DNA from: Olsenella sp. An188
Lineage (GTDB): Bacteria > Actinomycetota > Coriobacteriia > Coriobacteriales > Atopobiaceae
NCBI RefSeq assembly: GCF_002160255.1
Contig: NZ_NFKF01000004.1
Coordinates: 124,001 to 188,000, forward strand
Reading direction: 5' to 3'
DNA length: 64,000 nt
The notes below the pieces were generated by a model that worked only from the letters and a program-made list of their open reading frames with translations, made no database searches and was not told the DNA's origin. The stretch's first letter is position 1; each line of letters opens with the position of its first letter. Below, piece after piece: positions 2 to 20,873 of this stretch. The position numbers were made by a program, and so were the translations under genes.

Positions 2-661
2 CTCGACCCCAAGTACAACCCCGAGCACTTCGAGGACGCCCGCTTCCTCGGCCGCGGCACCTGCACCGTCTCCCAGATCTTCTACACCTCGCCGTCCCGC
101 TGCGCCGTGGCAGACTCCTGCGCGATCTCCATCGACCGCCGCATGACCGCCGGCGAGACCTGGGACTCCTGCCTCCAGGAGATCCGCGACCTGCCTGCCG
201 TCAAGAAGTACGGCGACGACGTCAAGGTCTCCATGTACATGTACGACCGCCCGAGCTGGAAGGGCACCGTCTACGAGACCGAGGCCTACTTCCCCACGTG
301 GATCAACGCCGAGAGCGCCGCTCACGTCCAGGCCCTCGTCGACGCGCACCACGCGCTCTTCGGTGACGAGCGCATCGGCTGCGAGGCCTCGATGGACAAG
401 CGCACCGGCCGCCCGCTGACCGACAAGTGGACCTTCTCCACCAACTGCGTCTCCATCCAGGGCCGCTACGGCATCCCGTGCGTGGGCTTCGGCCCCGGCG
501 CCGAGAGTCAGGCGCACGCCCCCAACGAGGTCACCTACAAGCAGGACCTCGTGACCTGCGCCGCGCTCTACACCGCCGCGCTCAACCTCTACGACCCGTC
601 CAAGAAGACCGGCGACGTGACGGTCTTCCGCGCCGGCGCCACGGACAACGACATCCAGTAA
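2..661 (+). CDS. ygeY: YgeY family selenium-metabolism-linked hydrolase (M20 peptidase-like), C-terminal part
   Basis: Only the C-terminal 219 residues are in the window; the reading frame is open from base 2. The visible part contains the conserved end of the YgeY family of M20-type metallohydrolases, including a G-RGT-CTVSQ stretch near the left edge, a C-ISIDRR-TAGET stretch, and a late GFGPG segment followed by AHAPNE, as expected of the metal-binding C-terminal half. YgeY proteins co-occur with selenium-dependent molybdenum hydroxylases and belong to the gut anaerobic purine/urate catabolic cluster; the exact substrate is not settled. It lies 81 bases before ygeW on the same strand and is probably in one operon. 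The family call is secure; the reaction is not. Confidence 0.85.
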
Positions 662-742
662 TACGGGGGACCGTCCCTCCGTATCGTCAAAGACGCAATG
701 AGGCAAGGGGGGCGTCCCTTTGCCTCGGGAAAGGAAACCACA

Positions 743-1945
743 ATGGCTAAGGACTTCTCCGCCCTTCTCGACGAGCTCTCCGGCTACGACTTCTCGGGCA
801 TGTACGACTCCGACTTCCTGCACACCTGGGACAAGACCACCGACGAGCTGCGCGCCCTCTACGCCACCGCCGCCGCCCTGCGCAACCTGCGCGAGCGCAA
901 CATCTCGCCGCGCATCTTCGACTCGGGCCTCGCGGTGTCGCTCTTCCGCGACAACTCCACCCGCACGCGCTTCTCGTTCTCCAAGGCCACGAACCTCCTG
1001 GGCCTCCAGCTCCAGGACCTCGACGAGGGCAAGAGCCAGATCGCGCACGGCGAGACCGTCCGCGAGACCGCCACGATGATCTCCTTCATGGCCGACGTCA
1101 TCGGCATCCGCGACGACATGTACATCGGCAAGGGCGACGCCTACATGGCCGAGGTCGCCGAGTCCGTCGACGAGGCCTACAAGGACGGCGTGCTCGACCA
1201 CCGTCCCACCCTCATCTCGCTGCAGTCCGACTCCGACCACCCGACGCAGTCCTCCGCCGACATGCTCTACCTCATCGAGGAGTTCGGCGGCCTGGAGAAC
1301 CTGCGCGGCAAGAAGGTCGCCGTGACCTGGGCCTACTCGCCCAGCTACGGCAAGCCGCTGTCCTGCCCGCAGTCGCTCATCTCGCTGCTGCCGCGCTTTG
1401 GCATGGACGTGACGCTGGCTCACCCCGAGGGCTACGACCTCATGGGCGACCGCGTGGAGGCCGCGAAGGCCTACGCCGCCGAGTCCGGCTGCACCTTCAA
1501 GCAGGTCAACACCATGGCCGAGGCCTTCGAGGGCGCCGACATCGTCATCCCCAAGAGCTGGGCTCCCTACGCCGCCATGGAGAAGCGCACCAACCTCTAC
1601 GCCGAGGGCGACGACGCCGGCATCAAGGCGCTCGAGAAGGAGCTGCTGGCCCAGAACGCCACGCACCAGGACTGGTGCTCCACGACCGACCTCATGGCGA
1701 AGACCGCCAACGGCCAGGACACCATCTACATGCACCCGCTGCCCGCCGACATCTCCGGCGTCTCCTGCGAGCACGGCGAGGTCATGGCCGACGTCTTTGA
1801 CATGCACCGCGTGGGCATGTACAAGGAGGCCAGCTACAAGCCCTACGCCATCGCCGCGATGATCTTCCTGCAGAAGGTCAAGGACCCGGTGGCCACCCTG
1901 CGCGCCCTCGAGTCCGCCGCCAAGCCCCGCTGGAACCAGGCGTAG
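743..1945 (+). CDS. ygeW: YgeW family knotted carbamoyltransferase
   Basis: A 400-residue aspartate/ornithine carbamoyltransferase paralogue. The carbamoyl-phosphate loop is seen as STRTR at residues 72-76, with a DHPTQSSAD segment in the middle and HPLP near residue 331 where ornithine carbamoyltransferases have HCLP. The long N-terminal helical part and spacing match YgeW rather than ArgF or PyrB. The start at 743 is preceded by a GGAAAGGAAACC ribosome site; an in-frame ATG at 698 lacks one. It probably performs carbamoyl transfer from a ureido intermediate of purine breakdown, handing carbamoyl phosphate to the carbamate kinase encoded next. That role is inferred from the cluster, since the true substrate of YgeW is not certain. 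Confidence 0.9.
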   Translation: MAKDFSALLDELSGYDFSGMYDSDFLHTWDKTTDELRALYATAAALRNLRERNISPRIFDSGLAVSLFRDNSTRTRFSFSKATNLLGLQLQDLDEGKSQIAHGETVRETATMISFMADVIGIRDDMYIGKGDAYMAEVAESVDEAYKDGVLDHRPTLISLQSDSDHPTQSSADMLYLIEEFGGLENLRGKKVAVTWAYSPSYGKPLSCPQSLISLLPRFGMDVTLAHPEGYDLMGDRVEAAKAYAAESGCTFKQVNTMAEAFEGADIVIPKSWAPYAAMEKRTNLYAEGDDAGIKALEKELLAQNATHQDWCSTTDLMAKTANGQDTIYMHPLPADISGVSCEHGEVMADVFDMHRVGMYKEASYKPYAIAAMIFLQKVKDPVATLRALESAAKPRWNQA

Positions 1946-2087: not shown

Positions 2088-3029
2088 ATGTCAAAGAGAA
2101 TCGTCATCGCGCTGGGTGGCAACGCGCTCGGCAAGAACCTGCCCGAGCAGATGGAAGCGGTCAAGCACACCGCCCGCGCCATCGTGGATCTCATCGAGCA
2201 GGGCAACGAGGTCGTGGTGGCCCACGGCAACGGCCCGCAGGTGGGCATGATCCAGGAGGCTATGACCCAGCTCACGCGCTCCAACCCCGAGAAGTACATC
2301 CCGTGCCCGCTCTCCGTCTGCGTGGCCATGAGCCAGGGCTACATTGGCTACGACCTGCAGAACGCGCTGCGCGAGGAGATGCTCGACCGAGGCATCGAGA
2401 AGGGCGCGGCCACGGTGCTCACCCAGGTCGAGGTGGACCCGGACGACCCGGCCTTCGCCAACCCCACCAAGCCCATCGGCGCCTTCATGACGCGCGAGGA
2501 GGCCGACCGCATGATCGCCGAGCGCGGCTACGACGTGGTGGAGGACGCGGGGCGCGGATTCCGCCGCGTGGTGGCCTCGCCCAAGCCGGCCGGCATCGTG
2601 GAGCTCGACACCATCCGCTCGCTCGTGGAGACCAACCACGTGGTCATCGCCTGCGGTGGCGGCGGCATCCCGGTCTTCCCGACCGAGGGACACCACCTCA
2701 AGGGCGCCGCGGCCGTCATCGACAAGGACTTCGCCGCGGCCAAGCTCGCCGAGCAGCTCGACGCCGACTTCCTCGTGATCCTCACGGCGGTCGAGAAGGT
2801 CGCGGTCAACTTTGGCAAGCCCGACCAGCAGTGGCTCGACGATCTCACGCCCGAGACGGCCGAGCGCTACATCGCCGAGGGCCAGTTCGCGCCCGGCTCG
2901 ATGCTGCCCAAGGTCCAGGCCGCGCTCGCCTTCGCGCAGTCCGGCCCCGGCCGCAGCTCGCTCATCACGCTGCTCGAGCGCGCGAGCGACGGAATCGCGG
3001 GCAAGACGGGTACCATCGTACGCGGATAG
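2088..3029 (+). CDS. arcC: Carbamate kinase
   Basis: A 313-residue amino-acid-kinase-fold protein of normal carbamate kinase length. The N-terminus reads IVIALGGNALG, followed by VVAHGNGPQVG near residue 45 and VIACGGGGIPV near residue 188, all family hallmarks. It converts carbamoyl phosphate and ADP to carbamate and ATP, the energy-conserving end of ureide catabolism, which fits its place directly after ygeW (as yqeA is linked to ygeW in enterobacteria). A good AAGGAGCA ribosome site lies 7-8 bases before the ATG. It is cytoplasmic. The only alternative role would be in an arginine deiminase pathway, but no arcA or arcB is nearby. Confidence 0.93.
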   Translation: MSKRIVIALGGNALGKNLPEQMEAVKHTARAIVDLIEQGNEVVVAHGNGPQVGMIQEAMTQLTRSNPEKYIPCPLSVCVAMSQGYIGYDLQNALREEMLDRGIEKGAATVLTQVEVDPDDPAFANPTKPIGAFMTREEADRMIAERGYDVVEDAGRGFRRVVASPKPAGIVELDTIRSLVETNHVVIACGGGGIPVFPTEGHHLKGAAAVIDKDFAAAKLAEQLDADFLVILTAVEKVAVNFGKPDQQWLDDLTPETAERYIAEGQFAPGSMLPKVQAALAFAQSGPGRSSLITLLERASDGIAGKTGTIVRG

Positions 3030-3059: not shown

Positions 3060-4013
3060 ATGAGACCCGACCTCAGGGCATATCTTCTGGACGACGGCGG
3101 GCACCGGGTGTTTGGGCCCGGCCCCGTCGAGCTCCTCGAGCGCGTGGGGGAGCTGGGGAGCCTGCGCGCGGCGGCAATCGAGATGGGCATGGCCTACACC
3201 AAGGCCACGCGCATCGTTCGCGACGCCGAGCGCGCCTTCGGCTTTCCCCTGACGGAGCGGACCGTGGGCGGCTCGGGCGGGGGAGGGTCGAGCCTCACCC
3301 CCGCCGCCCGCGACCTCATCGTGCGCTACCGTGCCTTCGAGCGCTCGAGCGAGCAGGCGCTCGTCTCGGCGTACGCCACGTGCTTCTCGGGCTTCGAGGG
3401 CGTCGCCCGCCTGGGCTGCGTGGTCATGGCGGCAGGCGCGGGCGAGCGCTTCGGCGGCGCCCCGGGCGAGAAGCTCACGGCGCCGCTCGCCGGGGTCCCG
3501 GTGCTCGAGCGCACGCTGCGCGCCCTGCCCGACGACCTTCTCGACGTCGTGGTGGTGAGCGCCCACCCGGCTGTGGCGGAGCTCTGCTCCCGACTGGGCG
3601 TGAGGTGTGTGGAGCCCGACGGCCCGCTCAAGGGGCAGACCATGAGCGCCGGCCTCGCCGCGCTGGGAGGGCGCGCGGGCTGCCTCTTCGTGACGGGCGA
3701 CCAGCCGCTGCTCACGCAGGGGAGCGTGCGCAGGCTCGTCGAGGCCCTCGCGCGCGAGCCGCGCTCGATCGTGCGCCTGGCGTGGCGTGGTCGCCCCGGC
3801 GCGCCGGTGCTCTGGCCGCACGACCTCCTCGGCGCCCTCGCGCACATCGAGGGGGACGCCGGCGGGACGGCGCTTCTCGCCGGGCATGCCGAGCTCTCGT
3901 CGCGCGTGCGCCTCGTGGAGGCCGCCGACGAGTGGGAGCTCGCGGACGTGGACACGGCAGAGGACCTCGAGCGCCTGGAGGCCGCCCTGCTCGGGAGAGA
4001 GGAGACGGCATGA
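3060..4013 (+). CDS. ModE-type winged-helix domain fused to a MocA-like molybdopterin nucleotidyltransferase
   Basis: 317 residues in two parts. Residues 1-100 resemble the ModE N-terminal winged helix (a GSLRAAAIEMGMAYTKA recognition region near residues 33-49, then LTPAARDLIVRY). Residues 118-310 form a MobA/MocA-type NTP transferase with the nucleotide loop MAAGAGERFGG at 123-133, a K at 138, and TGDQPLLT near residue 218. MocA proteins make molybdopterin cytosine dinucleotide for xanthine-dehydrogenase-type enzymes, and a member of this family is typical of selenium-dependent molybdenum hydroxylase loci. The fused DNA-binding domain suggests cofactor synthesis coupled to gene control, or a relic without regulatory activity. 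It overlaps the next gene by 4 bases (ATGA). Confidence 0.8.
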   Translation: MRPDLRAYLLDDGGHRVFGPGPVELLERVGELGSLRAAAIEMGMAYTKATRIVRDAERAFGFPLTERTVGGSGGGGSSLTPAARDLIVRYRAFERSSEQALVSAYATCFSGFEGVARLGCVVMAAGAGERFGGAPGEKLTAPLAGVPVLERTLRALPDDLLDVVVVSAHPAVAELCSRLGVRCVEPDGPLKGQTMSAGLAALGGRAGCLFVTGDQPLLTQGSVRRLVEALAREPRSIVRLAWRGRPGAPVLWPHDLLGALAHIEGDAGGTALLAGHAELSSRVRLVEAADEWELADVDTAEDLERLEAALLGREETA

Positions 4014-5380
4014 GGATTCTTGCTGGCGGAACGCTCGTCACGCCGGAGGGCCTGCGCCGCGGCGACGTGGCCCTGGAGGGCGAGAAGATCGCGGCGATCA
4101 GCGCGCGCCTTGAGCCGGCCGCCGGCGACGAGGTCGAGGACGTCACCGGGTGCTGGGTCTTCCCCGGCTTCATCGACGCGCACACGCACCTGCAGTGCTG
4201 GACCGGCATGGACTGGACGGCCGACAGCTTCGAGACGGGCACGTGCGCGGCCGCCTGCGGCGGGACCACCACGATCGTGGACTACGCCACGGCCGACCGC
4301 GGCGTGCGCATGGAGGAGGCCCTGGCCGAGTGGCACCGCCGCGCCGAGAGCGGGGCGGGCTGCACCGCCAACTACGGCTTCCACATGGCCATCGCCGAGT
4401 GGGGCGAGGACGGCCCGGAGCAGATGCGCGCCATGCGCGAGGCGGGCGTCTCGAGCTTCAAGACGTACCTGGCCTACGACCACCTGCGCCTCACGGACGC
4501 CGAGACCCTGCGCGTGCTGGAGTGCTGCCGCGACCTCGACGCCGTGCTCTGCGTGCACTGCGAGAACGGCGACGTGGTGAACGAGCTGCAGCGTCGCGTG
4601 CTCGCCGAGGGCGTCACGGGCCCGGAGGGGCATCCCCTCTCCCGGCCGGCCGAGGCCGAGGCGGACGCCGTGAGCAGGCTGCTGTACCTGGCCCAGATCG
4701 CGGGGGCGCGCGTGAACGTGGTGCACCTCTCCACCGAGCTGGGGCTTCTCGCCGTGCGGGCGGCCCGGGCGCGCGGCCAGCGCGGCATCTACGTGGAGAC
4801 CTGCCCGCAGTACCTCACGCTGGACGAGACGCGCTATCTGGAGGGCGGTGCGGACGGCTTCGCGGGCGCCAAGTACGTGATGAGCCCGCCTCTGCGCGCG
4901 GCCTCCGACGTGCGCGCGCTGCGCGGGGCGGTGCTGGCCGGCGAGGTGGACTCCATCGCCACGGACCACTGCTCGTTCAACCTCGCGGGGCAGAAGGACC
5001 GCGGGCGCGGTGACTTCACCAAGATCCCCAACGGCGGCCCGGGCATCGAGCACCGCCCGGCCGTGATGGCCACGACCTTCGAGGGCCAGCTCGGCCCGCG
5101 CGAGCTGTGCCGCCTCATGAGCGAGGGGCCGGCGCGCGTCTTTGGCATGTGGCCGCGCAAGGGCCGCCTGGCCGTGGGCGCCGACGCGGACGTCTGCGTG
5201 TGGGACCCCTCCGCGCGCTGGGTGATCTCTGCGGCCACGCAGCACCAGGCCGTGGACTACACGCCGTGGGAGGGCTTCGAGGCGCACGGCCGCGCGCACC
5301 TGGTGTACGTGGGCGGCGAGCTCGTGGTGCGCGACGGCGAGCCCACCGGATGCGCGCCCGGCCGCTACGTGGCAAGATGA
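4010..5380 (+). CDS. hyuA: Dihydropyrimidinase/hydantoinase family amidohydrolase
   Basis: A 456-residue cyclic amidohydrolase of usual family length. Metal ligands appear as DAHTH at residues 56-60, a SFKTYLAYD segment near residue 150 carrying the lysine usually carboxylated in this family, HCENGD near 183, HLSTELGL near 240, and ATDHCSFN near 320. These enzymes open hydantoin or dihydropyrimidine rings; the close relative HyuA is part of the anaerobic purine/urate cluster with ygeW and ygeY. The substrate here is probably a ring-opened purine product rather than a pyrimidine, by context. It is translationally coupled to the preceding fusion gene. Confidence 0.88.
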   Translation: MRILAGGTLVTPEGLRRGDVALEGEKIAAISARLEPAAGDEVEDVTGCWVFPGFIDAHTHLQCWTGMDWTADSFETGTCAAACGGTTTIVDYATADRGVRMEEALAEWHRRAESGAGCTANYGFHMAIAEWGEDGPEQMRAMREAGVSSFKTYLAYDHLRLTDAETLRVLECCRDLDAVLCVHCENGDVVNELQRRVLAEGVTGPEGHPLSRPAEAEADAVSRLLYLAQIAGARVNVVHLSTELGLLAVRAARARGQRGIYVETCPQYLTLDETRYLEGGADGFAGAKYVMSPPLRAASDVRALRGAVLAGEVDSIATDHCSFNLAGQKDRGRGDFTKIPNGGPGIEHRPAVMATTFEGQLGPRELCRLMSEGPARVFGMWPRKGRLAVGADADVCVWDPSARWVISAATQHQAVDYTPWEGFEAHGRAHLVYVGGELVVRDGEPTGCAPGRYVAR

Positions 5381-5427: not shown

Positions 5428-5814
5428 ATGGCAATCGAGGCAATCGTCACCGACAAGGCTCCCGCCGCGCTCGGTCCCTACTCCGCCGCCGTTTCGGCGC
5501 CCGCGACCCGCGCGATCCACGTGTCCGGCCAGCTGCCGATCGACCCGGCCACCGGCGAGTTCGCGGGCGAGGACATCGCCGCGCAGACCCGCCAGAGCCT
5601 CACCAACATCAAGAACATCCTCGAGGCCGCCGGCGCGAGCATGGCCGACGTGGCCGAGGTCACGGTCCTTCTCGACGACATCGCGGACTTCGGCGCGATG
5701 AACGAGGTCTACGGCGAGTTCTTCACGGCGCCGTACCCCTCGCGCGCGGCGTTCGAGGTCGCGGCGCTGCCGAAGGCGGCCAAGGTCGAGATCAAGGCAG
5801 TGGCCTACCTGTAG
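5428..5814 (+). CDS. ridA: RidA family reactive-intermediate deaminase
   Basis: 128 residues, the exact size of RidA/YjgF proteins. Seen are LGPYSAAV near the N-terminus, HVSGQLPIDP near residue 30, a TVLLDDIADFGAMNEVY stretch, and the conserved end PSRAAFEVAALPKAAKVEI, whose arginine binds the carboxylate of imine substrates. RidA hydrolyses 2-aminoacrylate and related enamines; the diaminopropionate ammonia-lyase (ygeX) usually present in this cluster makes such enamines, giving a sensible reason for its presence. The start at 5428 follows AAGGAGAAGAAC, a good ribosome site. It closes the operon and a large hairpin follows. Confidence 0.92.
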   Translation: MAIEAIVTDKAPAALGPYSAAVSAPATRAIHVSGQLPIDPATGEFAGEDIAAQTRQSLTNIKNILEAAGASMADVAEVTVLLDDIADFGAMNEVYGEFFTAPYPSRAAFEVAALPKAAKVEIKAVAYL

Positions 5815-12566: not shown

Positions 12567-12681
12567 AGAAGGGGCAAGGAGAGACGAGAAGGGGCGAGAA
12601 GAGGCGGGGCGTGGCGGGACGGCGTGCCGCCCGGGGGCGCTACGGCGCCGCTCGCAGCGCGGTGGCGCAGTGCCAAACTTA

Positions 12682-12700
12682 TTGTGAGGTATACTTACAA
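12682..12700 (+). promoter_or_regulatory. Candidate promoter/operator before yqeB-xdhC
   Basis: An imperfect palindrome TTGT-AG-N5-CT-ACAA overlaps a TATACT hexamer (12690-12695) about 75 bases before the start codon, in a rare AT-rich stretch. No clear -35 box is visible. A molybdate- or selenium-responsive regulator is possible but not shown. Confidence 0.35.
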
Positions 12701-12770
12701 CTTGGAATTGGGCGGGCGACGTCCACCGTTAGACTTATGAAAATATAACGCCTACGAGGGAGTTCGTTAG

Positions 12771-14696
12771 ATGCTGGTAGTGATCAGGGGTGCGGGGGAC
12801 ATCGCCACGGGCGTGGCGCTGCGCCTGCACCGCGCGGGGATGCGGGTCGTGATGTGCGACCTGCCCACCCCCACCTCCATCCGGCGCACCGTGTGCTTCT
12901 CCGAGGCCATCCGCCTGGGGGAGACGCGGGTCGAGGGCGTGCGCGGGGTGCTCTGCGCGGATGCCGCAACCGCGCGTGCCGTCGCGCGGGCGGGCGACGT
13001 GGCGGTGCTCGCGGACCCGGACGCGTCCTGCGTGGCAGAGCTCGCCCCGGACGCGCTCGTGGACGCGATCCTCGCCAAGCGAAACCTCGGCACGCGCCGC
13101 GGCATGGCGCCCGTCGTGGTGGGCGTGGGGCCCGGCTTCACCGCGCCCGTGGACTGCGACGCTGCGGTCGAGACGATGCGCGGCCACTACCTGGGCCGCG
13201 TCTACTACCAGGGGTCGCCGCTGCCCAACACGGCAGTGCCCGGCCTCATCGGCGGCTACGCGGGCGAGCGCGTGATGCGTGCGCCGGCCGACGGCGTCTT
13301 CGAGCCCTGCGTGGAGATCGGCGCCACGGTGCGCGCCGGGGACGTCTGCGCGCGCGTGGCCGGCGAGCCCATGTGCGCGACGATCGACGGCGTGGTGCGC
13401 GGCCTGCTCCAGGCCGGCGTGCGCGTGACGGCGGGCATGAAGTCCGGCGACGTGGACCCGCGCTGCCACCCGGAGTACATCGAGACCTCCTCCGACAAGG
13501 CGCTCGCCGTGGGCGGCGGCGTCCTCGAGGCGATACTTGCCCTCTCGGGCGGTGCCGCGGGCGACCGGGGCGAGAAGAACGACGCCCCCGCGCTCGGCGA
13601 CACCTTCTCCGACCAGGGCTTCGTTTCCGCCCTGCGAGACGAGCTCGCCGCGGGGCGCCGCGTGGCGCTGGCCAGCCTGCTCGCCACACGCGGCTCGATG
13701 CCGCGCCACGAGGGCGCGCGGCTGGCCGTGCTGGAGGACGGCCGCGTGCTCGGCACCGTGGGCGGCGGCAACGTGGAGCGCGTGGCCGAGTCCCGCGCCC
13801 GGGCACTTCTCGCCGGCGAGAAGAACGTGCAGCTTCCGGACGCTTCCGCGGCCCAAACCGACCGAAACCCGCACGCACCCGGAACCGCGCAGCTTCCGGA
13901 CGCTTCCGCGGCCCAAACCGACCGAAACCCGCACGCACCCGCGCTCGAGTGGCTCACCCGCGACGCCAACGACATGGCCTGCGGCGGGGACGCGCTTCTC
14001 GCCGTGCGCGCGCTCACGCCCGACGACCTCCCGACCCTCGAGGCGCTTCTTGGCGCGCTGGGGTCCCGCGGAGCCGCCACGCTCGAGGAGCTGTGGGCGG
14101 ACCCGTCCGCGCCCGAGCTCCGCGTGGCGACCGACGCCCGCCTTGCGCCCCGCGCGAGCTGGGACGAGGCGTCCGCCACCTACCGCGAGCCGGTCCTGGC
14201 GAGCGCGACCTGCCACGTCTTTGGCGCGGGCCACGTGGGCTCGGCGCTCGTGCCGCTGGCGGCGTCCATCGGCTACGAGGTGGCCGTCTACGACGACCGC
14301 CCGGAGGCCGCAGATCCCGCGCGCCTCCCGTCGGCGACGTCGGTGAGCTGCGGCTCGTTTGCCGACCTCGCCGCCGAGGCCAGGATCGGCGCGCATGACG
14401 CCGTGGTGGTGCTCACCCATGGCCACGCCGCCGACGAGACCGTTCTTCTCGCCGTGCTCGCGCGCGAGGCTCAGCCCGCCTACGTGGGCTGCATCGGGAG
14501 CCGCCGCAAGGCCGCGCTCGCCCGCGCCCGACTCGAGGCGGCCGGGATCCCCGCCGAGCGCGTTGCGTCCGTGCACCTGCCCATCGGCGAGGACATCCTC
14601 GCCGTCACGCCACAGGAGATAGCCGTCTCGATCGCGGCCCAGCTCATACGCTGCCGCGCCGGGCGGAGGACGCAAGGGGAAGGGACTCGCTCATGA
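12771..14696 (+). CDS. yqeB: YqeB-XdhC fusion: selenium-dependent Mo cofactor maturation protein
   Basis: 641 residues. Residues 1-275 are YqeB (VIRGAGDIATGVALRLHRAG at the start, GVGPGFTAP near residue 121, ETMRGHYLGRVYYQG near 140). Residues 290-635 are XdhC-like, with an RGSMPRHEGARL segment near 307, GTVGGGNVE near 327, VFGAGHVGSAL near 485, VLTHGHAADE near 545 and GCIGSRRK near 570. YqeB and XdhC act in preparing the (seleno)molybdenum cofactor for hydroxylases; here they are one chain. A foreign palindromic repeat lies in frame at residues 346-390. The gene overlaps modA by 4 bases. An alternative is two separate functions joined only for stoichiometry. Confidence 0.87.
   Translation: MLVVIRGAGDIATGVALRLHRAGMRVVMCDLPTPTSIRRTVCFSEAIRLGETRVEGVRGVLCADAATARAVARAGDVAVLADPDASCVAELAPDALVDAILAKRNLGTRRGMAPVVVGVGPGFTAPVDCDAAVETMRGHYLGRVYYQGSPLPNTAVPGLIGGYAGERVMRAPADGVFEPCVEIGATVRAGDVCARVAGEPMCATIDGVVRGLLQAGVRVTAGMKSGDVDPRCHPEYIETSSDKALAVGGGVLEAILALSGGAAGDRGEKNDAPALGDTFSDQGFVSALRDELAAGRRVALASLLATRGSMPRHEGARLAVLEDGRVLGTVGGGNVERVAESRARALLAGEKNVQLPDASAAQTDRNPHAPGTAQLPDASAAQTDRNPHAPALEWLTRDANDMACGGDALLAVRALTPDDLPTLEALLGALGSRGAATLEELWADPSAPELRVATDARLAPRASWDEASATYREPVLASATCHVFGAGHVGSALVPLAASIGYEVAVYDDRPEAADPARLPSATSVSCGSFADLAAEARIGAHDAVVVLTHGHAADETVLLAVLAREAQPAYVGCIGSRRKAALARARLEAAGIPAERVASVHLPIGEDILAVTPQEIAVSIAAQLIRCRAGRRTQGEGTRS
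13806..13941. repeat. In-frame insertion of a palindromic repeat (family D) with an inverted GGCGAGAAG pair, inside yqeB-xdhC
   Basis: CTTCTCGCC (13806-13814) and GGCGAGAAG (13815-13823) abut as an inverted pair. They are followed by a 53-base sequence present twice with a 60-base period (13829-13881 and 13889-13941), each a hairpin of the GTGC-GCTTCCGG.../...CCGAAACCCGCAC kind. It encodes two copies of QLPDASAAQTDRNPHAP. Length and period keep the frame. Confidence 0.85.
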
Positions 14697-15568
14697 GCAT
14701 GGACAGAAGGAGCTTCGTCGCTCTGATGGCCGGCACGACCGCCGCCGCCGCGCTCGCCGGCTGCGACTCCGGCTCGCCCTCGGGCGACGGCATGGACGCC
14801 CCCGCGGCCGACGCCACCTCCGGCGAGAAGACCCAGGTCGTCGTCTTTGCCGCCGCCTCCATGACCGAGAGCCTCACCAAGGCCGGCGACCTCTTCACGT
14901 CCGGGAGCCCCGAGTACGAGCTCTCGTTCAACTTCGACTCCTCGGGCACGCTCAAGACCCAGATCCAGGAGGGCGCGGACTGTGACGTGTTCATCTCGGC
15001 GGGCCAGCTCCAGATGGACCAGCTCGACGCCGAGGACGAGACCGGCAGCAACACCGAGGGCCTCGACCTCATCGACTCGGCCACGCGCTTCGACATCCTC
15101 GAGAACGAGGTCGTGCTCGTGGTGCCCGAGGGCAACCCCAAGGGCGTGGAGAGCTTCGACCAGCTCGCCGAGCTGCTCGCCGCCGGCGACGTCTTCATGG
15201 CGATGGGCAACTCCGACGTGCCGGTGGGCCAGTACACCCAGAAGATCCTCGCCTACTACGGCCTCTCCGAGGAGGAGCTCGCCGCCGCGGGCACGCTCAC
15301 GTACGGCTCCAACGTCAAGGAGGTCACCTCGCAGGTCTCCGAGGGCGCGGTGGACTGCGGCGTGGTCTACAAGACCGACGCCTTCTCGGCCGGCCTCACC
15401 GTGGTCGACTCCGCCACGGCCGAGATGTGCGGCCAGGTGGTCTACCCGGCCGCCGTGACCAAGAACGCCCCCAACCCGGACGCGGCGCAGGCCTTCCTCG
15501 ACTACCTCAAGGGCGACGAGGCCTCGGCGTGCTTCGAGGAGGTAGGCTTTACCCCGCTCGCCAACTAG
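14693..15568 (+). CDS. modA: Molybdate ABC transporter substrate-binding lipoprotein
   Basis: 291 residues. The signal DRRSFVALMAGTTAAAALAGC has a lipobox LAGC (Cys at residue 23), so the mature protein is lipid-anchored outside the membrane; the DRRSF start hints at Tat-like features. The body shows FAAASMTESL near residue 55, FNFDSSGTLKTQIQEGADCDVFIS near 83-106, and the late VTKNAPNPDAAQAFLDYL, all ModA hallmarks. It captures molybdate for the ModBC permease encoded next. Placement in the Mo-cofactor locus supports molybdate rather than sulfate. Start overlaps the stop of the fusion gene, implying coupling. Confidence 0.93.
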   Translation: MSMDRRSFVALMAGTTAAAALAGCDSGSPSGDGMDAPAADATSGEKTQVVVFAAASMTESLTKAGDLFTSGSPEYELSFNFDSSGTLKTQIQEGADCDVFISAGQLQMDQLDAEDETGSNTEGLDLIDSATRFDILENEVVLVVPEGNPKGVESFDQLAELLAAGDVFMAMGNSDVPVGQYTQKILAYYGLSEEELAAAGTLTYGSNVKEVTSQVSEGAVDCGVVYKTDAFSAGLTVVDSATAEMCGQVVYPAAVTKNAPNPDAAQAFLDYLKGDEASACFEEVGFTPLAN

Positions 15569-15633
15569 GGCAGTGGCCGGGGGCGGTCGGTGGCCGCCCC
15601 CCGATCGCCCCGCCCCACGGAGAAGGACCGCGC

Positions 15634-16323
15634 ATGGACTGGTACCCGCTCGTAAACTCGCTGCGCATCGCCGCCATCTCGACGGTGATCGTCTTCTTCC
15701 TGGGCGTCTGGCTCGCGAACCTCGTGGTCCGCGCGCCGCGCCTGGTGAAGGGCGTGCTCGACGTGATCCTCACGCTGCCGCTCGTGCTGCCGCCCACCGT
15801 GGTCGGCTACCTGCTGCTCATCCTGCTGGGCCCGCGCCGGCCGCTCGGCATGCTCGCCGCCGAGTTCCTGGACCTGCGGCTCACGATGACCTGGTACGCC
15901 GCGATCTTCGCCACGGTGGTGGTGAGCTTCCCGCTCATGTACCGCACTGCGCGCGGCGCCTTCGAGGCCTTCGACGAGACGCTCGCCGACGCCGGGCGCA
16001 CCCTCGGCCACTCCGAGCGCTGGGTCTTCTGGCGCGTCAAGATGCCCTGCTGCCTGCAGGGCATCGTGGCGGGCGCGGTCCTCGCGTTCGCGCGCGCCCT
16101 GGGCGAGTACGGCGCCACGTCCATGATCTGCGGCTACACGCCCGGCTCCACCGCCACGGTCTCCACGACGGTCTACCAGCTCTGGCGCACCGGCGACGAC
16201 GCGGGTGCCTTCGCGTGGGTCATGGTGAACCTCGCCATCTCCGCCGTGGTCCTTCTCGCCATGAACTGGTTCGAGGCCCGCGGGCGCGCGAGCTCCGCGG
16301 CGGCGCGGGGGGCGGCGCGATGA
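15634..16323 (+). CDS. modB: Molybdate ABC transporter permease
   Basis: 229 residues with about five membrane segments. The EAA loop appears as EAFDETLADAGRTLGHSERWVFWRVKMP near residues 113-140 and is followed by FARALGEYGATSMICGYTPG, typical of ModB. It forms the membrane channel of the ModABC importer. The ATG at 15634 follows CACGGAGAAGGACC. Its stop overlaps the modC start (ATGA), showing translational coupling. Confidence 0.94.
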   Translation: MDWYPLVNSLRIAAISTVIVFFLGVWLANLVVRAPRLVKGVLDVILTLPLVLPPTVVGYLLLILLGPRRPLGMLAAEFLDLRLTMTWYAAIFATVVVSFPLMYRTARGAFEAFDETLADAGRTLGHSERWVFWRVKMPCCLQGIVAGAVLAFARALGEYGATSMICGYTPGSTATVSTTVYQLWRTGDDAGAFAWVMVNLAISAVVLLAMNWFEARGRASSAAARGAAR

Positions 16324-17411
16324 GCCTTACGGTCGACGTCCGCAAGCGCCTCGGCGACTTCACCCTCGACGTGTCGTTCGAGGTCGAGGACGCGCGCGAG
16401 ACCTGCGCCCTTCTCGGCCCGTCGGGCTGTGGCAAGTCGCTCACGCTCAAGTGCGTGGCGGGCGTGCTCACCCCGGACGAGGGGCGCATCGTGCTGGGCG
16501 ACCGCGTGCTCTTTGACTCGGAGGCGCGCGTGAACCTGCCGCCGCAGCGCCGGCGCGTGGGCTACCTCTTCCAGCAGTACGCGCTGTTCCCCACCATGAC
16601 GGTCGAGCAGAACATCGCGGCCGGCGCGGTGGGCGTGGACCGGCGCGAGCGCGCCCGGCGCGTGGCCGAGCAGGTGCGGGCGTTTCGCCTCGGGGGGCTC
16701 GAGCGCCTGCGCCCGGCGCAGCTCTCCGGCGGGCAGCAGCAGCGCGTGGCCCTGGCGCGCATCATGGCGGGTGAGCCGGAGCTCATCATGCTCGACGAGC
16801 CCTTCTCGGCGCTCGACGGGCACCTGCGCTGGGAGCTCGAGATGGAGCTCACGGACACCCTGCGGAGCTTCCCGGGCGGCGCGCTGTACGTGAGCCACAA
16901 CCGCGACGAGGTCTACCGCATGTGCGACACCGTCTGCGTGATCGACCGCGGCCGCTCGGAGGAGAAGCTCACCGTGGCGCAGCTCTTCTCCACGCCTGCG
17001 ACGCTGGCGGCGGCGCTCATCTCCGGGTGCAAGAACGTCTCGGCCGCGCGCGTGGCGGGCGAGAAGGACGCTCTGACGCTGCTCGCGTGCGCGGACTGGG
17101 GCGTGACCCTGGCGAGCTCGCTGCCGCTGCCCGAGGGCGTCAGCCACGCCGGCCTGCGCGCCCACTACCTGCGGGTCTATCGGCTGGGGGAGGTGCCTTC
17201 GGGCGCGGTGAACGTCGTGCGGTGCACGGTGGACCGCGTGATCGACTCCACGTTCTCCACCATCGCGATGCTCGCCACGCCCGGCGGCGCGCGCCTGCGC
17301 TACGAGTGCGAGAAGGACGCGTGGGCGGCGCTCGCCGGCGAGCGCGAGCTTGCGGTGGTGGCCGACCCCGGAATCGTGATGCCGCTTGCCGGGGGTGGCG
17401 CGGATGCGTGA
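16320..17411 (+). CDS. modC: Molybdate ABC transporter ATP-binding protein
   Basis: 363 residues. Walker A GPSGCGKS at residues 33-40, Q-loop FQQYALFP near 84, signature LSGGQQQR near 138, Walker B LIMLDEPFSALDGH near 158, and a histidine in YVSHNRDEV. The C-terminal 120 residues are a diverged ModC regulatory (TOBE/Mop-like) domain with AGLRAHYLRVY and a CTVDRVIDSTFSTIAML segment. It powers molybdate import. It overlaps moaA by 8 bases. Confidence 0.93.
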   Translation: MSLTVDVRKRLGDFTLDVSFEVEDARETCALLGPSGCGKSLTLKCVAGVLTPDEGRIVLGDRVLFDSEARVNLPPQRRRVGYLFQQYALFPTMTVEQNIAAGAVGVDRRERARRVAEQVRAFRLGGLERLRPAQLSGGQQQRVALARIMAGEPELIMLDEPFSALDGHLRWELEMELTDTLRSFPGGALYVSHNRDEVYRMCDTVCVIDRGRSEEKLTVAQLFSTPATLAAALISGCKNVSAARVAGEKDALTLLACADWGVTLASSLPLPEGVSHAGLRAHYLRVYRLGEVPSGAVNVVRCTVDRVIDSTFSTIAMLATPGGARLRYECEKDAWAALAGERELAVVADPGIVMPLAGGGADA

Positions 17412-18351
17412 CGGGGAGGGGCGGCTCGTAGAGTACCTGCGGCTCTCCGTGACGGACCGCTGCAACTGCCGCTGCACGTACTGCATGCCGGCCGGCGGCG
17501 TGCCGATGCTCTCGCACGCGGACGTGTGCAGCTTCGAGGAGCTCGTCGAGATCACGGCCGCGCTCGCCGAGCTCGGCGTGCGCAAGGTGCGCCTCACCGG
17601 CGGCGAGCCGCTCGTCCGCCGCGGCGTCGTGGGTCTGGTGGAGATGCTGCGCGCGGTGGGCGGCGTGGAGGAGGTCGACCTCACGACGAACGCCACGCTG
17701 CTCGCGCCGCTCGCCGCGCCCCTGCGCGCGGCGGGGCTCGACCGCGTCAACGTGAGCCTCGACACGCTCGACGCGGCGCGCTACGAGGCCGTCACGCGCG
17801 GTGGCCGACTCGCCGACGCGCTCGCCGGGATCGAGGCCGCGCGCGCCGCGGGCTTCTCGCCCATCAAGATAAACTGCGTGCTCATGGGCGGCGTGAACGA
17901 CGACGAGGTCCCGCGCCTTGCCGCGCTCGCGCGCGAGGCGCACACGGAGGTGCGCTTCATCGAGCTCATGCCCATCGGGGAGGCGGCGTGCTGGCCCCGC
18001 GGGCGCTTCGTGGACGCCTCGGCGGTGCTCGACGCAGTGCCCGAGCTGCGCCCGTGCGGCACGGACGGCGTGGCCGAGCTCTTCTCGGCGCCCGGGTGGG
18101 CGGGGCGCGTGGGGCTCATCCGGCCGATGAGCCACCGGTTCTGCAGCCGCTGCACGCGCGTGCGGGTGACGGCGGACGGCCGGCTCAAGCCGTGCCTGCA
18201 CACGGCCGACGAGGTCGCGCTGCGCGGGCTTCACGGCGAGGCCCTGCGCGAGGCGATTCTCGCCGGAATCGCGCTCAAGCCGGCGCATCATGGTATGGAC
18301 GGGGCCCACGCGAGCGAGTCGGCGCGGGCCATGAACGAGATTGGGGGCTAG
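17404..18351 (+). CDS. moaA: GTP 3',8-cyclase MoaA
   Basis: 315 residues. The radical-SAM cluster is CNCRCTYC (C20, C24, C27), followed by RLTGGEPLVRRG near residue 65, and the second C-terminal cluster is CSRCTRVRVTADGRLKPC near 247-264. It carries out the first step of molybdopterin synthesis from GTP. The start ATG 17404 is used because the conserved EYLRLSVTDRCN begins shortly after; a TTG at 17386 would add six residues. A GG end (the conserved MoaA C-terminal glycines) is present as NEIGG. Operon position between modC and moaC fits. Confidence 0.95.
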   Translation: MRDGEGRLVEYLRLSVTDRCNCRCTYCMPAGGVPMLSHADVCSFEELVEITAALAELGVRKVRLTGGEPLVRRGVVGLVEMLRAVGGVEEVDLTTNATLLAPLAAPLRAAGLDRVNVSLDTLDAARYEAVTRGGRLADALAGIEAARAAGFSPIKINCVLMGGVNDDEVPRLAALAREAHTEVRFIELMPIGEAACWPRGRFVDASAVLDAVPELRPCGTDGVAELFSAPGWAGRVGLIRPMSHRFCSRCTRVRVTADGRLKPCLHTADEVALRGLHGEALREAILAGIALKPAHHGMDGAHASESARAMNEIGG

Positions 18352-18352
18352 C

Positions 18353-19285
18353 GTGGAGGGCTCGATCAAGGCCGACGACCTCACGCACGTCAACGAGCAG
18401 GGCCGCGCGCGCATGGTGGACGTCTCCGCCAAGCCGGCGACCGACCGCGTCGCGCGCGCCGCCGGCTTCGTGCGGATGGCGCCCTCCACGGTGGGGCTCG
18501 TGCGCACCGGAGGGGCCAAGAAGGGCGACGTGCTCGCGGTGGCGCAGGTGGCGGGCATCATGGCCGCCAAGCGCTGCTGGGAGCTGGTGCCGATGTGCCA
18601 TCCCGTGCAGCTCACGGGTGTCGACGTGCGCTTCTCGGTGGGGGAGGGCGGCGTGGGCATCGAGGCCACGTGCCGCTGTCACGGCGAGACGGGCGTGGAG
18701 ATGGAGGCCCTCACGGCGGTCTCCGCGGCGGCGCTCACGGTCTACGACATGCTTAAGGCGCACCAGCGCGACATGGTGATCGAGGACGTGCGCCTGGTCG
18801 AGAAGCGCGGCGGCGCGAGCGGCGACTACGCGGCCGGCGCCGCGCGGGGTGCGGCCACGGTCGAGGCGGTGTGCGTGAGCGAGGAGAAGGGCACGCGCAA
18901 GCGCCCGGTCGACGCCATCGAGCTCGTGGTGGGCGAGGGCGTTTCCGGCGACGCGCACGCCGGCAACTGGCACCGCCAGGTGAGCCTGCTTCCGGCTGAG
19001 GCCGTTGACGAGCTGCGCGACCGCCTGCCCGACCTCGCGCCCGGCGACTTTGCCGAGAACATCCTCACCCGCGGGGTCGACCTCAAGGCGCTGCCGGTGG
19101 GCACGGTGCTGAGGGCCGGCGCGGCCGAGCTCGTGGTGACCCAGATCGGCAAGGAGTGCCACACCGCCTGCGAGATCCGCAGGCTCACGGGCAGGTGCGC
19201 GATGCCCACCGAGGGCATCTTCTGCGTGGTCACGCGCGGCGGCACCGTGCGTGCCGGGGACAGTCTGGAGGTGGTCGCACGATGA
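18353..19285 (+). CDS. moaC: MoaC-MOSC domain fusion
   Basis: 310 residues starting at GTG, one base after the moaA stop. Residues 1-155 are cyclic pyranopterin monophosphate synthase MoaC (MVDVSAKP near residue 20, MCHPVQLTGVD near 80, a VEMEALTAVSAAALTVYDM run near 115). Residues 165-305 are a MOSC domain (GDAHAGNWHRQVSLLP near 200, GDFAENILTRGVDL near 230, a CHTACEIRRLTGRCAMP stretch with conserved cysteines). MOSC domains are linked to sulfuration of the Mo cofactor, so one chain joins an early step and a late chalcogen-insertion step. The fusion recurs in some anaerobes, to my knowledge. Confidence 0.9.
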   Translation: MEGSIKADDLTHVNEQGRARMVDVSAKPATDRVARAAGFVRMAPSTVGLVRTGGAKKGDVLAVAQVAGIMAAKRCWELVPMCHPVQLTGVDVRFSVGEGGVGIEATCRCHGETGVEMEALTAVSAAALTVYDMLKAHQRDMVIEDVRLVEKRGGASGDYAAGAARGAATVEAVCVSEEKGTRKRPVDAIELVVGEGVSGDAHAGNWHRQVSLLPAEAVDELRDRLPDLAPGDFAENILTRGVDLKALPVGTVLRAGAAELVVTQIGKECHTACEIRRLTGRCAMPTEGIFCVVTRGGTVRAGDSLEVVAR

Positions 19286-20334
19286 GGCTCGTTCGCACCG
19301 AGGACGCGGTGGGGCACGTCCTCTGCCACGACATGACGCAGATCCTGACCGGGGACTCTCCGGACGCCCCGCGCTTCAAGGGGCCGCGCTTCAGGAAGGG
19401 CCACGTGGTGACGGCTGAGGACGTCCCGGTGCTGCTCTCCATGGGCAAGGTGAACCTCTACGTCTGGGAGCTCGAGGACGGCATGGTCCACGAGGACGAC
19501 GCGGCCCGTCGCATGGCGGCGCTCGTGGCCGGCCCCGGCACCGAGGCGACCGGAGCGCCCTCGGAGGGCAAGATCAACGTGCGCGCCGCCGTGGACGGCG
19601 TGCTGCTCGTGGACTCCGAGCGCCTGCGCGCCGTGAACTCGGTCGAGCAGGTGATGGTGGCCACGCGTCGCGGCGGCTTTGCCGTGCGCGCCGGCGACCT
19701 CGTGGCGGGCACCCGCGTGATTCCGCTGGTCATAGCCGAGGAGCAGCTCGCGCGGGCCGAGGCCGCCGCGGGCGAGGAGCCGCTGCTGTCCGTGGCGCCC
19801 TTCTCGCTGCGCACGGCCGCCGTGGTGGCCACGGGCTCCGAGGTGGCCTCCGGGCTCATCGAGGACCGCTTCACGCCGGTCATGGTGGACAAGCTCGCGG
19901 CGTACGGCATCGAGGTCGTGAGCCGCTCCACGCCGGGCGACGAGCGCGACGCCGTGGTCGCCGCCATCGACGAGACGCGCGCCGCGGGCGTGGACCTCGT
20001 GCTGTGCACGGGCGGCATGAGCGTGGACCCGGACGACAACACGCCCGGCGCCATCCGTGCCGCCGGCGCGCGCGTGGTGGCCTACGGGGCGCCGGTCCTG
20101 CCGGGTGCGATGCTGCTCGTGGGCTACTTCGACGAGCCGGGCGGACGGTCGGTCCCGGTGCTCGGCGTGCCGGGCTGCGCGATGTACAACAAGGCCACGG
20201 TGCTCGACCTCATCCTGCCGCGCCTGGCGGCCGGCGTGGAGGTCACCCGCTCCGACCTGGTGGCGCTGGGCGAGGGCGGGCTGTGCCTGGGATGCACCGA
20301 GTGCACCTACCCGCACTGCCCCTTCGGGAGGTAG
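19282..20334 (+). CDS. MoeA/MoaB-like molybdopterin-binding protein with C-terminal cysteine cluster
   Basis: 350 residues. The N-terminal 170 residues form a family-specific domain (LCHDMTQI near residue 16, FRKGHVV near residue 36). Residues 180-320 are a MoCF_biosynth (MPT-binding) domain with ATGSEVASGLIEDRFTP near 185, LVLCTGGMSVDPDDNTPGAI near 240, and VLGVPGCAMYNK near 295. The tail GLCLGCTECTYPHCPFG has five cysteines and may bind a metal or an Fe-S cluster. It likely inserts molybdenum or hands MPT onward. It is distinct from classical four-domain MoeA. Overlaps the MOSC gene by 4 bases. Confidence 0.82.
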   Translation: MRLVRTEDAVGHVLCHDMTQILTGDSPDAPRFKGPRFRKGHVVTAEDVPVLLSMGKVNLYVWELEDGMVHEDDAARRMAALVAGPGTEATGAPSEGKINVRAAVDGVLLVDSERLRAVNSVEQVMVATRRGGFAVRAGDLVAGTRVIPLVIAEEQLARAEAAAGEEPLLSVAPFSLRTAAVVATGSEVASGLIEDRFTPVMVDKLAAYGIEVVSRSTPGDERDAVVAAIDETRAAGVDLVLCTGGMSVDPDDNTPGAIRAAGARVVAYGAPVLPGAMLLVGYFDEPGGRSVPVLGVPGCAMYNKATVLDLILPRLAAGVEVTRSDLVALGEGGLCLGCTECTYPHCPFGR

Positions 20335-20336
20335 CC

Positions 20337-20873
20337 GTGGGCGAGAAGAACCCCGCGTCCGCAGGCGAGAAGAACCCCGCCTCTGCGGCCCGCACCGCGG
20401 CCGTCGTCACCGTGAGCGACCGCGCCGCCGCCGGCGTCTACGAGGACGCGACGGGCCCGGCGGTGAGCGCGCTTCTCGCCGAGCGGGGCTATGAGGTGGT
20501 GCGCGCGCTCGTGGTGTCCGACGAGCGTGCCGAGATCGAGTCCGCCCTCGTCCACGCCGCCGAGCGCGACGTGGCGCTCGTGGTGACCTGCGGCGGCACG
20601 GGCCTCTCGCCGCGCGACGTGACGCCCGAGGCCACCGCCGCGGTCTGCGAGCGCATGGTGCCCGGGATCGGGGAGGCCATGCGCGCCGCGTCGATGCAGG
20701 TGACGAGCCGCGCCTGCCTCTCGCGCGCGACGGCCGGCATCCGCGGGCGCACCCTCATCGTGAACCTTCCGGGCAGCCCGCAGGCGGCCACGGAGAACCT
20801 CGAGGCCGTCATCGACCCCATCGGCCACGGCCTCGACACGCTGCGAGGCGGCCCCATGAGCTGCGCCCGGTAA
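20337..20873 (+). CDS. mogA: MogA/MoaB family molybdopterin adenylyltransferase
   Basis: 178 residues beginning at GTG 20337. The MoCF_biosynth fold is clear: AAVVTVSDRAAAGVYEDATGP near residues 21-41, TCGGTGLSPRDVTPEAT near 85-101, and NLPGSPQAATENL near 144. It activates molybdopterin by adenylation. The N-terminal extension is odd: GEKNPASA occurs twice in succession, encoded by two GGCGAGAAGAACCCCGC units (20340 and 20364), i.e. the genome-wide motif has been used as coding sequence. The extension is not part of the fold. Last gene of the Mo operon. Confidence 0.92.
   Translation: MGEKNPASAGEKNPASAARTAAVVTVSDRAAAGVYEDATGPAVSALLAERGYEVVRALVVSDERAEIESALVHAAERDVALVVTCGGTGLSPRDVTPEATAAVCERMVPGIGEAMRAASMQVTSRACLSRATAGIRGRTLIVNLPGSPQAATENLEAVIDPIGHGLDTLRGGPMSCAR

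Follow-up and report, generated by a model that had tools for sequence, protein, structure and literature searches.

ModE of Escherichia coli (structures 1b9m and 1o7l) carries a winged helix followed by a long helix and by molybdate-binding Mop domains, and the published ModE consensus is ATCGCTATATA-N6-TATATAACGAT (PMC2700814, PMC545781). Single-domain ModE proteins, such as 2ijl of Agrobacterium and those described for Desulfovibrio (PMC545781), have the helix without Mop domains, and a 2004 paper called it unclear by what means molybdenum is sensed in ModE proteins that lack this molybdate-binding part (PMC545781). Nucleotidyltransferases of the MocA/YgfJ type (TIGR03310; structures 2waw and 2we9) are placed beside yqeB/yqeC and purine genes in the account of PMC2276186. 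Trigger enzymes such as BirA and NadR are cofactor enzymes that double as transcription factors (PMC8249747, PMC6978683).

Here, we describe a gene of Olsenella sp. An188, located in a stretch of 64,000 nucleotides (referred to as the window), that draws on all of these systems. As in E. coli ModE, its winged helix is followed by a long helix, but a nucleotidyltransferase stands in the place of the Mop domains. It resembles the single-domain ModE proteins in having the helix without Mop domains, but differs from them in that its helix is attached to an enzyme. With MocA/YgfJ, it shares the fold and motifs of the enzyme domain and the genetic neighborhood, to which it adds a DNA-binding domain, a score below the family cutoff, and three extra residues inserted into the nucleotide loop. 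Like BirA and NadR, it combines an enzyme and a DNA-binding domain in one chain and is predicted to act on genes of its own pathway, although those proteins have other folds and other cofactors (biotin and NAD) and the ligand control of the fusion is what we infer. The fusions shown in a survey of molybdoprotein fusions (PMC6147048) do not include a ModE helix-MocA protein, and we found no description of one in the open-access literature, where “ModE” is a poor search term that matches “mode.” Mop-less ModE proteins, MocA enzymes, and trigger enzymes have each been described before; that literature yielded no case in which they are united and accompanied by a matching operator set.

A ModE-type winged helix and a MocA-like domain in a single chain

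An initial annotation, made from the sequence alone, had proposed that one gene of a purine operon encodes both a ModE DNA-binding domain and a MocA-like domain, and this arrangement is borne out by the profile matches, the 317-aa ORF, and the neighboring genes (Table 1). The fusion gene is a single ORF running from an ATG to a TGA. Its residues 19 to 102 match the ModE domain model TIGR00637 (E = 9e-16; 57.7 bits, below the curated cutoff of 98.5), and its residues 119 to 305 match the MocA/YgfJ model TIGR03310 (E = 2.5e-29; 102.6 bits, below the equivalog cutoff of 186.45), while Pfam HTH_1 (residues 24 to 84) and NTP_transf_3 (residues 120 to 277) both score above their cutoffs. An assembly or frame artifact, including a frameshift, was excluded, since the same single frame runs through both domains in 28 of the 31 genus genomes searched. 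Pfam found no TOBE domain in the chain, which has the NTP transferase at residues 119 to 305 instead, and no further sensing domain. The linking helix presumably occupies the position of the ModE helix that precedes the Mop domains.

Table 1 Features of the fusion locus and of the predicted target operon (positions in the window)
Feature	Position	Strand	Basis
ygeY 3' part, host operon (gene starts before window)	107..661	+	profile match
ygeW knotted carbamoyltransferase, host operon	740..1945	+	profile match
arcC carbamate kinase, host operon	2088..3029	+	profile match
Fusion gene, 317 aa: ModE-type winged helix and MocA-like nucleotidyltransferase	3060..4013	+	ORF, profile matches, structure model
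ModE-type winged-helix domain, residues 19-102	3114..3365	+	NCBIfam, alignment, structure comparison
Long linking helix, residues 81-108	3300..3383	+	structure model
MocA-like NTP-transferase domain, residues 119-305	3414..3974	+	profile, alignment, structure comparison
Dihydropyrimidinase/hydantoinase; start overlaps fusion stop (ATGA)	4010..5380	+	ORF, profile match
RidA-family gene, host operon	5431..5814	+	profile match
Predicted operator, ModE-like box CGTTAGACTTATGAAAATATAACG, 44 bp before yqeB start codon	12727..12750	+	pattern, conservation
yqeB-XdhC-like fusion gene, first in predicted target operon	12771..14696	+	profile match
modA, modB, modC (molybdate ABC transporter)	14693..17411	+	profile match
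moaA, moaC-MOSC, moeA-like, mogA-like (cofactor synthesis)	17386..20873	+	moeA-like: molyb_syn match and by eye

The AlphaFold2 model of the whole chain has a mean pLDDT of 91.7 and a pTM of 0.85. Since the structure comparison of this model took in the enzyme part only, we modeled the winged helix separately. Four ModE entries rank at the top for this lone helix domain (1b9m, Z 15.3; 1b9n, 15.2; 1o7l, 14.8; 2ijl, 14.1), with a LysR protein as the best entry from outside ModE (Z 10.6). For the enzyme part, the matches include MocA-type structures (3d5n, Z 22.4; 2waw, 21.9; also 2we9) and, at comparable Z, other nucleotidyltransferases such as IspD and GlmU.

In the winged-helix domain, S34, G43, Y46, K48, and A49, together with the wing residues G70, G71, G74, and G75, are invariant in all 28 aligned fusions. 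The helix is also constrained more strongly than the enzyme domain: its mean identity is 89.5%, versus 83.8% for the MocA domain, among 231 pairs from the genus it is the better conserved domain in 228, and its dN/dS is the lower one in 4/4 pairs. A vestigial helix in a protein that is solely an enzyme, as the TIGR00637 score below the cutoff might suggest, is hardly credible, because the helix is better conserved than the enzyme; conserved boxes (see below) and the lack of another ModE in the genome also stand against it. The enzyme domain retains the motifs RFG...KL, GDQ, GDxGG, and DxDT, which we take to be the nucleotide and metal motifs of MocA, and their Asp and Gly residues are invariant across the 28 fusions. 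The nucleotide-loop insertion is found in the Thermophilibacter form, is absent from five other fusions compared, and could affect enzyme activity.

The fusion is the only recognizable ModE and MocA protein of its genome

The host operon has the order ygeX-ygeY-ygeW-arcC-fusion-hydantoinase-ridA (ygeX named by eye). The window also carries yqeC, yedF, a cysteine-desulfurase-like gene, and selD, and many such genes have been linked to selenium-dependent molybdenum hydroxylases (PMC2276186). Both xanthine oxidase (XO)-family hydroxylases of the genome lie outside the window: one is encoded with an FAD subunit, and the other is a selenium-dependent xanthine dehydrogenase (TIGR03311, above the cutoff) behind xanthine permease, ssnA, and ygfK. 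In the predicted target operon, yqeB and an XdhC-like domain share one ORF, separated by a tandem repeat of ∼17 residues, and MoaC is fused to a MOSC domain (18341-19285). As for control by a Moco riboswitch, the window has no Rfam match at the gathering score except an aspS RNA motif (RF02930; 37163-37244, plus strand; 49.8 bits).

The genome is 99.94% complete, and the fusion is the sole ModE-type helix found in it, apart from one chance-like match of 16.8 bits in an unrelated open frame. Among six other NTP_transf_3 matches, the best three resemble GlmU, GalU, and IspD and the other three score <28 bits, so that no second MocA or MobA was recognized there. These counts bear on whether the MocA domain could be a pure sensor that has lost catalysis. 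The TIGR03310 score, the nucleotide-loop insertion, and the weaker constraint than on the helix would fit such a loss, but two XO-family enzymes without any other recognized MocA or MobA, and the invariant Asp and Gly motif residues, make it very improbable. Given that the motifs are retained, the MocA domain is probably enzymatically active.

A search of the genome for a molbindin or Mop-type partner likewise gave none, the lone TOBE match belonging to a sugar-type ABC ATPase (by eye). Together with the missing TOBE domain in the chain, this agrees with the earlier proposal that the enzyme domain sits at the molybdate-binding position of ModE. Molybdate or tungstate might still be sensed directly by the helix or by an unrecognized partner, leaving the MocA domain irrelevant to sensing. 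The single-domain ModE proteins of Desulfovibrio, which have predicted boxes and whose molybdenum sensing is left unexplained (PMC545781), speak for such a route; against it are the nature of the TOBE match and the fact that Pfam finds no TOBE domain in the ModC of the window, and we consider this explanation unlikely.

The two domains occur in both orders and have probably been joined more than once

Following the suggestion of the initial annotation to look for the architecture across genomes, we found the full-length fusion in 28 of 31 genus genomes, namely, the source genome and 27 of its 30 relatives; the named ones among these belong to Thermophilibacter/Olsenella. Of the rest, G004 and G030 have no match and G016 has a partial one at a contig end. 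Among 296 genomes of the class, 45 have the full-length fusion, all of them from the family of the source organism; elsewhere in the class, where there is a match, the helix and MocA are in separate frames.

Outside the class, the helix is a separate gene in the Oscillospiraceae and Lachnospiraceae loci, with its 3' end overlapping the MocA gene in the +1 frame. The MocA genes of such overlapping pairs often bear an NTPase_1-like domain in front, and in L029, L031, L032, and L035 to L039 it is an N-terminal P-loop domain of this kind. Programmed +1 frameshifting was considered for these pairs, since the open frame of MocA reaches far into the helix gene, and was disfavored relative to an overlapping start. 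All 12 overlapping loci (L027 to L033 and L035 to L039) have the codons TAT GAA, which create the ATG, where the two Gemmiger genomes with an in-frame fusion (L024 and L025) read TAC GAA (the L027, L028, and Gemmiger codons were read from 15 of 26 entries), so that a MocA start overlapping the helix gene is the favored prediction. This suggests that in Clostridia the helix can exist as a protein of its own, in which case DNA binding would not require a covalent link to the enzyme domain.

The trees place both Gemmiger fusions with overlapping Gemmiger pairs and apart from Atopobiaceae (support of 99/97 for the helix and 100/99 for MocA). In the simplest reading of these sequences, the Gemmiger fusion would be an event separate from that in Atopobiaceae, with fission rather than fusion being a conceivable alternative for the Gemmiger and overlapping genes. 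The reversed order, with MocA first and the ModE helix last, occurs in five loci (L183, L184, L189, L192, and L195) that form a MocA clade of their own (100/100). A search with one reversed protein against 394 genomes of its order gave a match at E ≤1e-25 in 10 genomes, in 4 of them over nearly the full length. Judging the neighbors by eye, a molybdenum-hydroxylase-like gene is close to the reversed genes of both L183 (6361-7284, minus strand) and L184 (5462-6463, plus strand); the former also has moaA and moaC nearby.

This distribution bears on whether the fusion is passive, i.e., whether the helix binds its boxes and the enzyme makes cofactor with no influence on each other, the join merely fixing their coexpression. 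The adjacent overlapping genes of the Clostridial relatives offer an easy path to such a neutral fusion. Separate joining in Gemmiger and Atopobiaceae, the reversed order in a third lineage, the persistence of the architecture across 45 class genomes, and the lack of another sensing domain in the chain point the other way, leaving a passive fusion less probable than mutual influence, though a more serious contender than sensing by another route.

ModE-like boxes precede molybdenum and purine genes

Ahead of the yqeB-modABC-moaA operon lies a 24-bp palindrome, CGTTA-N14-TAACG, whose core length is that of the E. coli ModE box and whose half-sites are closely similar to the published ones; the box described for Desulfovibrio differs (PMC545781). 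We searched with a pattern in which the ten outer letters were fixed, using the backwards pattern as a control. The 2.14-Mb genome has two exact sites, one at yqeB and one ahead of pfl, as well as boxes with one mismatch 96 bp before the start of the FAD-subunit gene and in the xanthine-permease promoter region.

Of the 29 yqeB upstream regions compared across the genus, 23 contain an exact box and 28 contain one with at most one mismatch, versus 1 and 28 of 2,900 shuffles, respectively (one of 30 loci was dropped, the yqeB of G030 running off its contig). For the FAD gene, the numbers are 8 and 24 of 26 regions, versus 1 and 9 of 2,600 shuffles, and the box keeps a near-constant distance of 89 to 96 bp; under a looser null, 360 windows taken from the FAD loci contained 6 sites at ≤1 mismatch. 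In total, the 31 genomes hold 51 exact sites, compared with 7 for the backwards control: 23 at yqeB, 8 at the FAD gene, 11 at xanthine permease (where, besides the source genome, only exact matches were counted, in 11/31 genomes), 2 at pfl, and 7 elsewhere. The last are one each in G009, G018, and G011 (at a contig end), two in a repeated element of G026, and one each in G020 and G007 near a carA-looking gene. Both pfl sites, in the source genome (contig C1, position 549612; 1501-1524 of L110) and in G022 (L117), stand shortly before the pyruvate formate-lyase gene and may mark a regulon member or be due to chance. The FAD gene of G002 has no box at ≤2 mismatches and that of G008 has one with two mismatches, while G026 lacks the yqeB box and has a one-mismatch box 87 bp before a modA-like gene. 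G004, which has neither fusion nor yqeB, has no exact box.

Similar boxes occur in all 12 Clostridial overlapping-gene loci, ∼3 kb before the helix gene (7 at ≤1 mismatch and 5 at two), in front of a transporter operon whose last genes are the ModE-helix/MocA pair. Among the seven loci with the closer match, five have a FecB-type binding-protein gene next (PF01497 for L031; the others by eye) and five have a divergent FAD-subunit-like gene (by eye). Neither Gemmiger fusion locus has a box at ≤2 mismatches nearby.

The proposal that the cofactor enzyme reports to transcription thus gains plausibility from the ModE-like boxes at molybdenum and purine promoters, but its expected action on the operon that encodes it finds no support: the predicted operators are elsewhere, with no box at ≤2 mismatches ahead of ygeX in the source genome and, in 15/15 relatives examined, none at ≤1 mismatch within 8 kb ahead of the fusion. 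A promoter scan before yqeB gave no sigma-70-like match. In most of 28 yqeB promoters (L081 to L106), a second conserved element, roughly TTTGTnAGcTAnACTnAC (∼12675-12705 in the window), lies some 30 to 50 bp before the box and could correspond to the core promoter or to a site of the DtxR type.

A proposed trigger-enzyme-like ModE variant

Our main reading, to which we assign a probability of about 0.5, is that the fusion is a bifunctional regulator whose helix binds the boxes and whose MocA domain both makes the cofactor adduct and gates this binding. Its parts differ in strength. The boxes, whose support comes from sequence and conservation, are assigned to the fusion because no other ModE-type helix was found in the genome, and it is highly probable that its helix binds them. 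The winged helix, presumably as a dimer, would occupy the 24-bp boxes at the molybdate-uptake/cofactor-synthesis, molybdenum-hydroxylase, and xanthine-permease operons, and the MocA-like domain, as the only recognizable enzyme of the cell that adds a nucleotide to molybdopterin, would serve the XO-family hydroxylases. That the ligand state of this domain gates DNA binding is suggested by analogy and may or may not apply, the odds being a little short of even. The ligand would be the Mo-cofactor, its CMP adduct, or CTP, and the occupied versus the unoccupied nucleotidyltransferase would set the grip of the helix pair on the boxes in a BirA-like or NadR-like loop. The enzyme domain is the simplest sensor on hand, given that the chain lacks a Mop domain and that the genome search turned up no molbindin. 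At yqeB-mod, regulation would probably be repression, which the short distance of the box from the start codon would suit. Counting against this reading are the box-free host operon, the profile scores under the NCBIfam cutoffs, the loop insertion, the separately encoded helix of Clostridia, the exact boxes at pfl and at unrelated or unclear places, and the box-free surroundings of both Gemmiger fusions. The protein is plausibly best described as a trigger-enzyme-like ModE variant in which a cofactor enzyme has replaced the molybdate-binding domain.

More tentatively still, these gut anaerobes with molybdenum-hydroxylase purine genes, in which the domains appear to have been joined more than once and in both orders, might read the finished Mo-cofactor, or its nucleotide adduct, through a working nucleotidyltransferase that replaces molybdate sensing. 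The fusion family offers one testable answer to how Mop-less ModE proteins sense molybdenum, namely, through the cofactor enzyme itself, and, for gut Atopobiaceae and Clostridia, it supplies a defined set of predicted operators at purine genes and at genes of selenium-linked molybdenum hydroxylases. If this is true, molybdenum and purine genes in these bacteria would be controlled by the finished cofactor and not by the metal.
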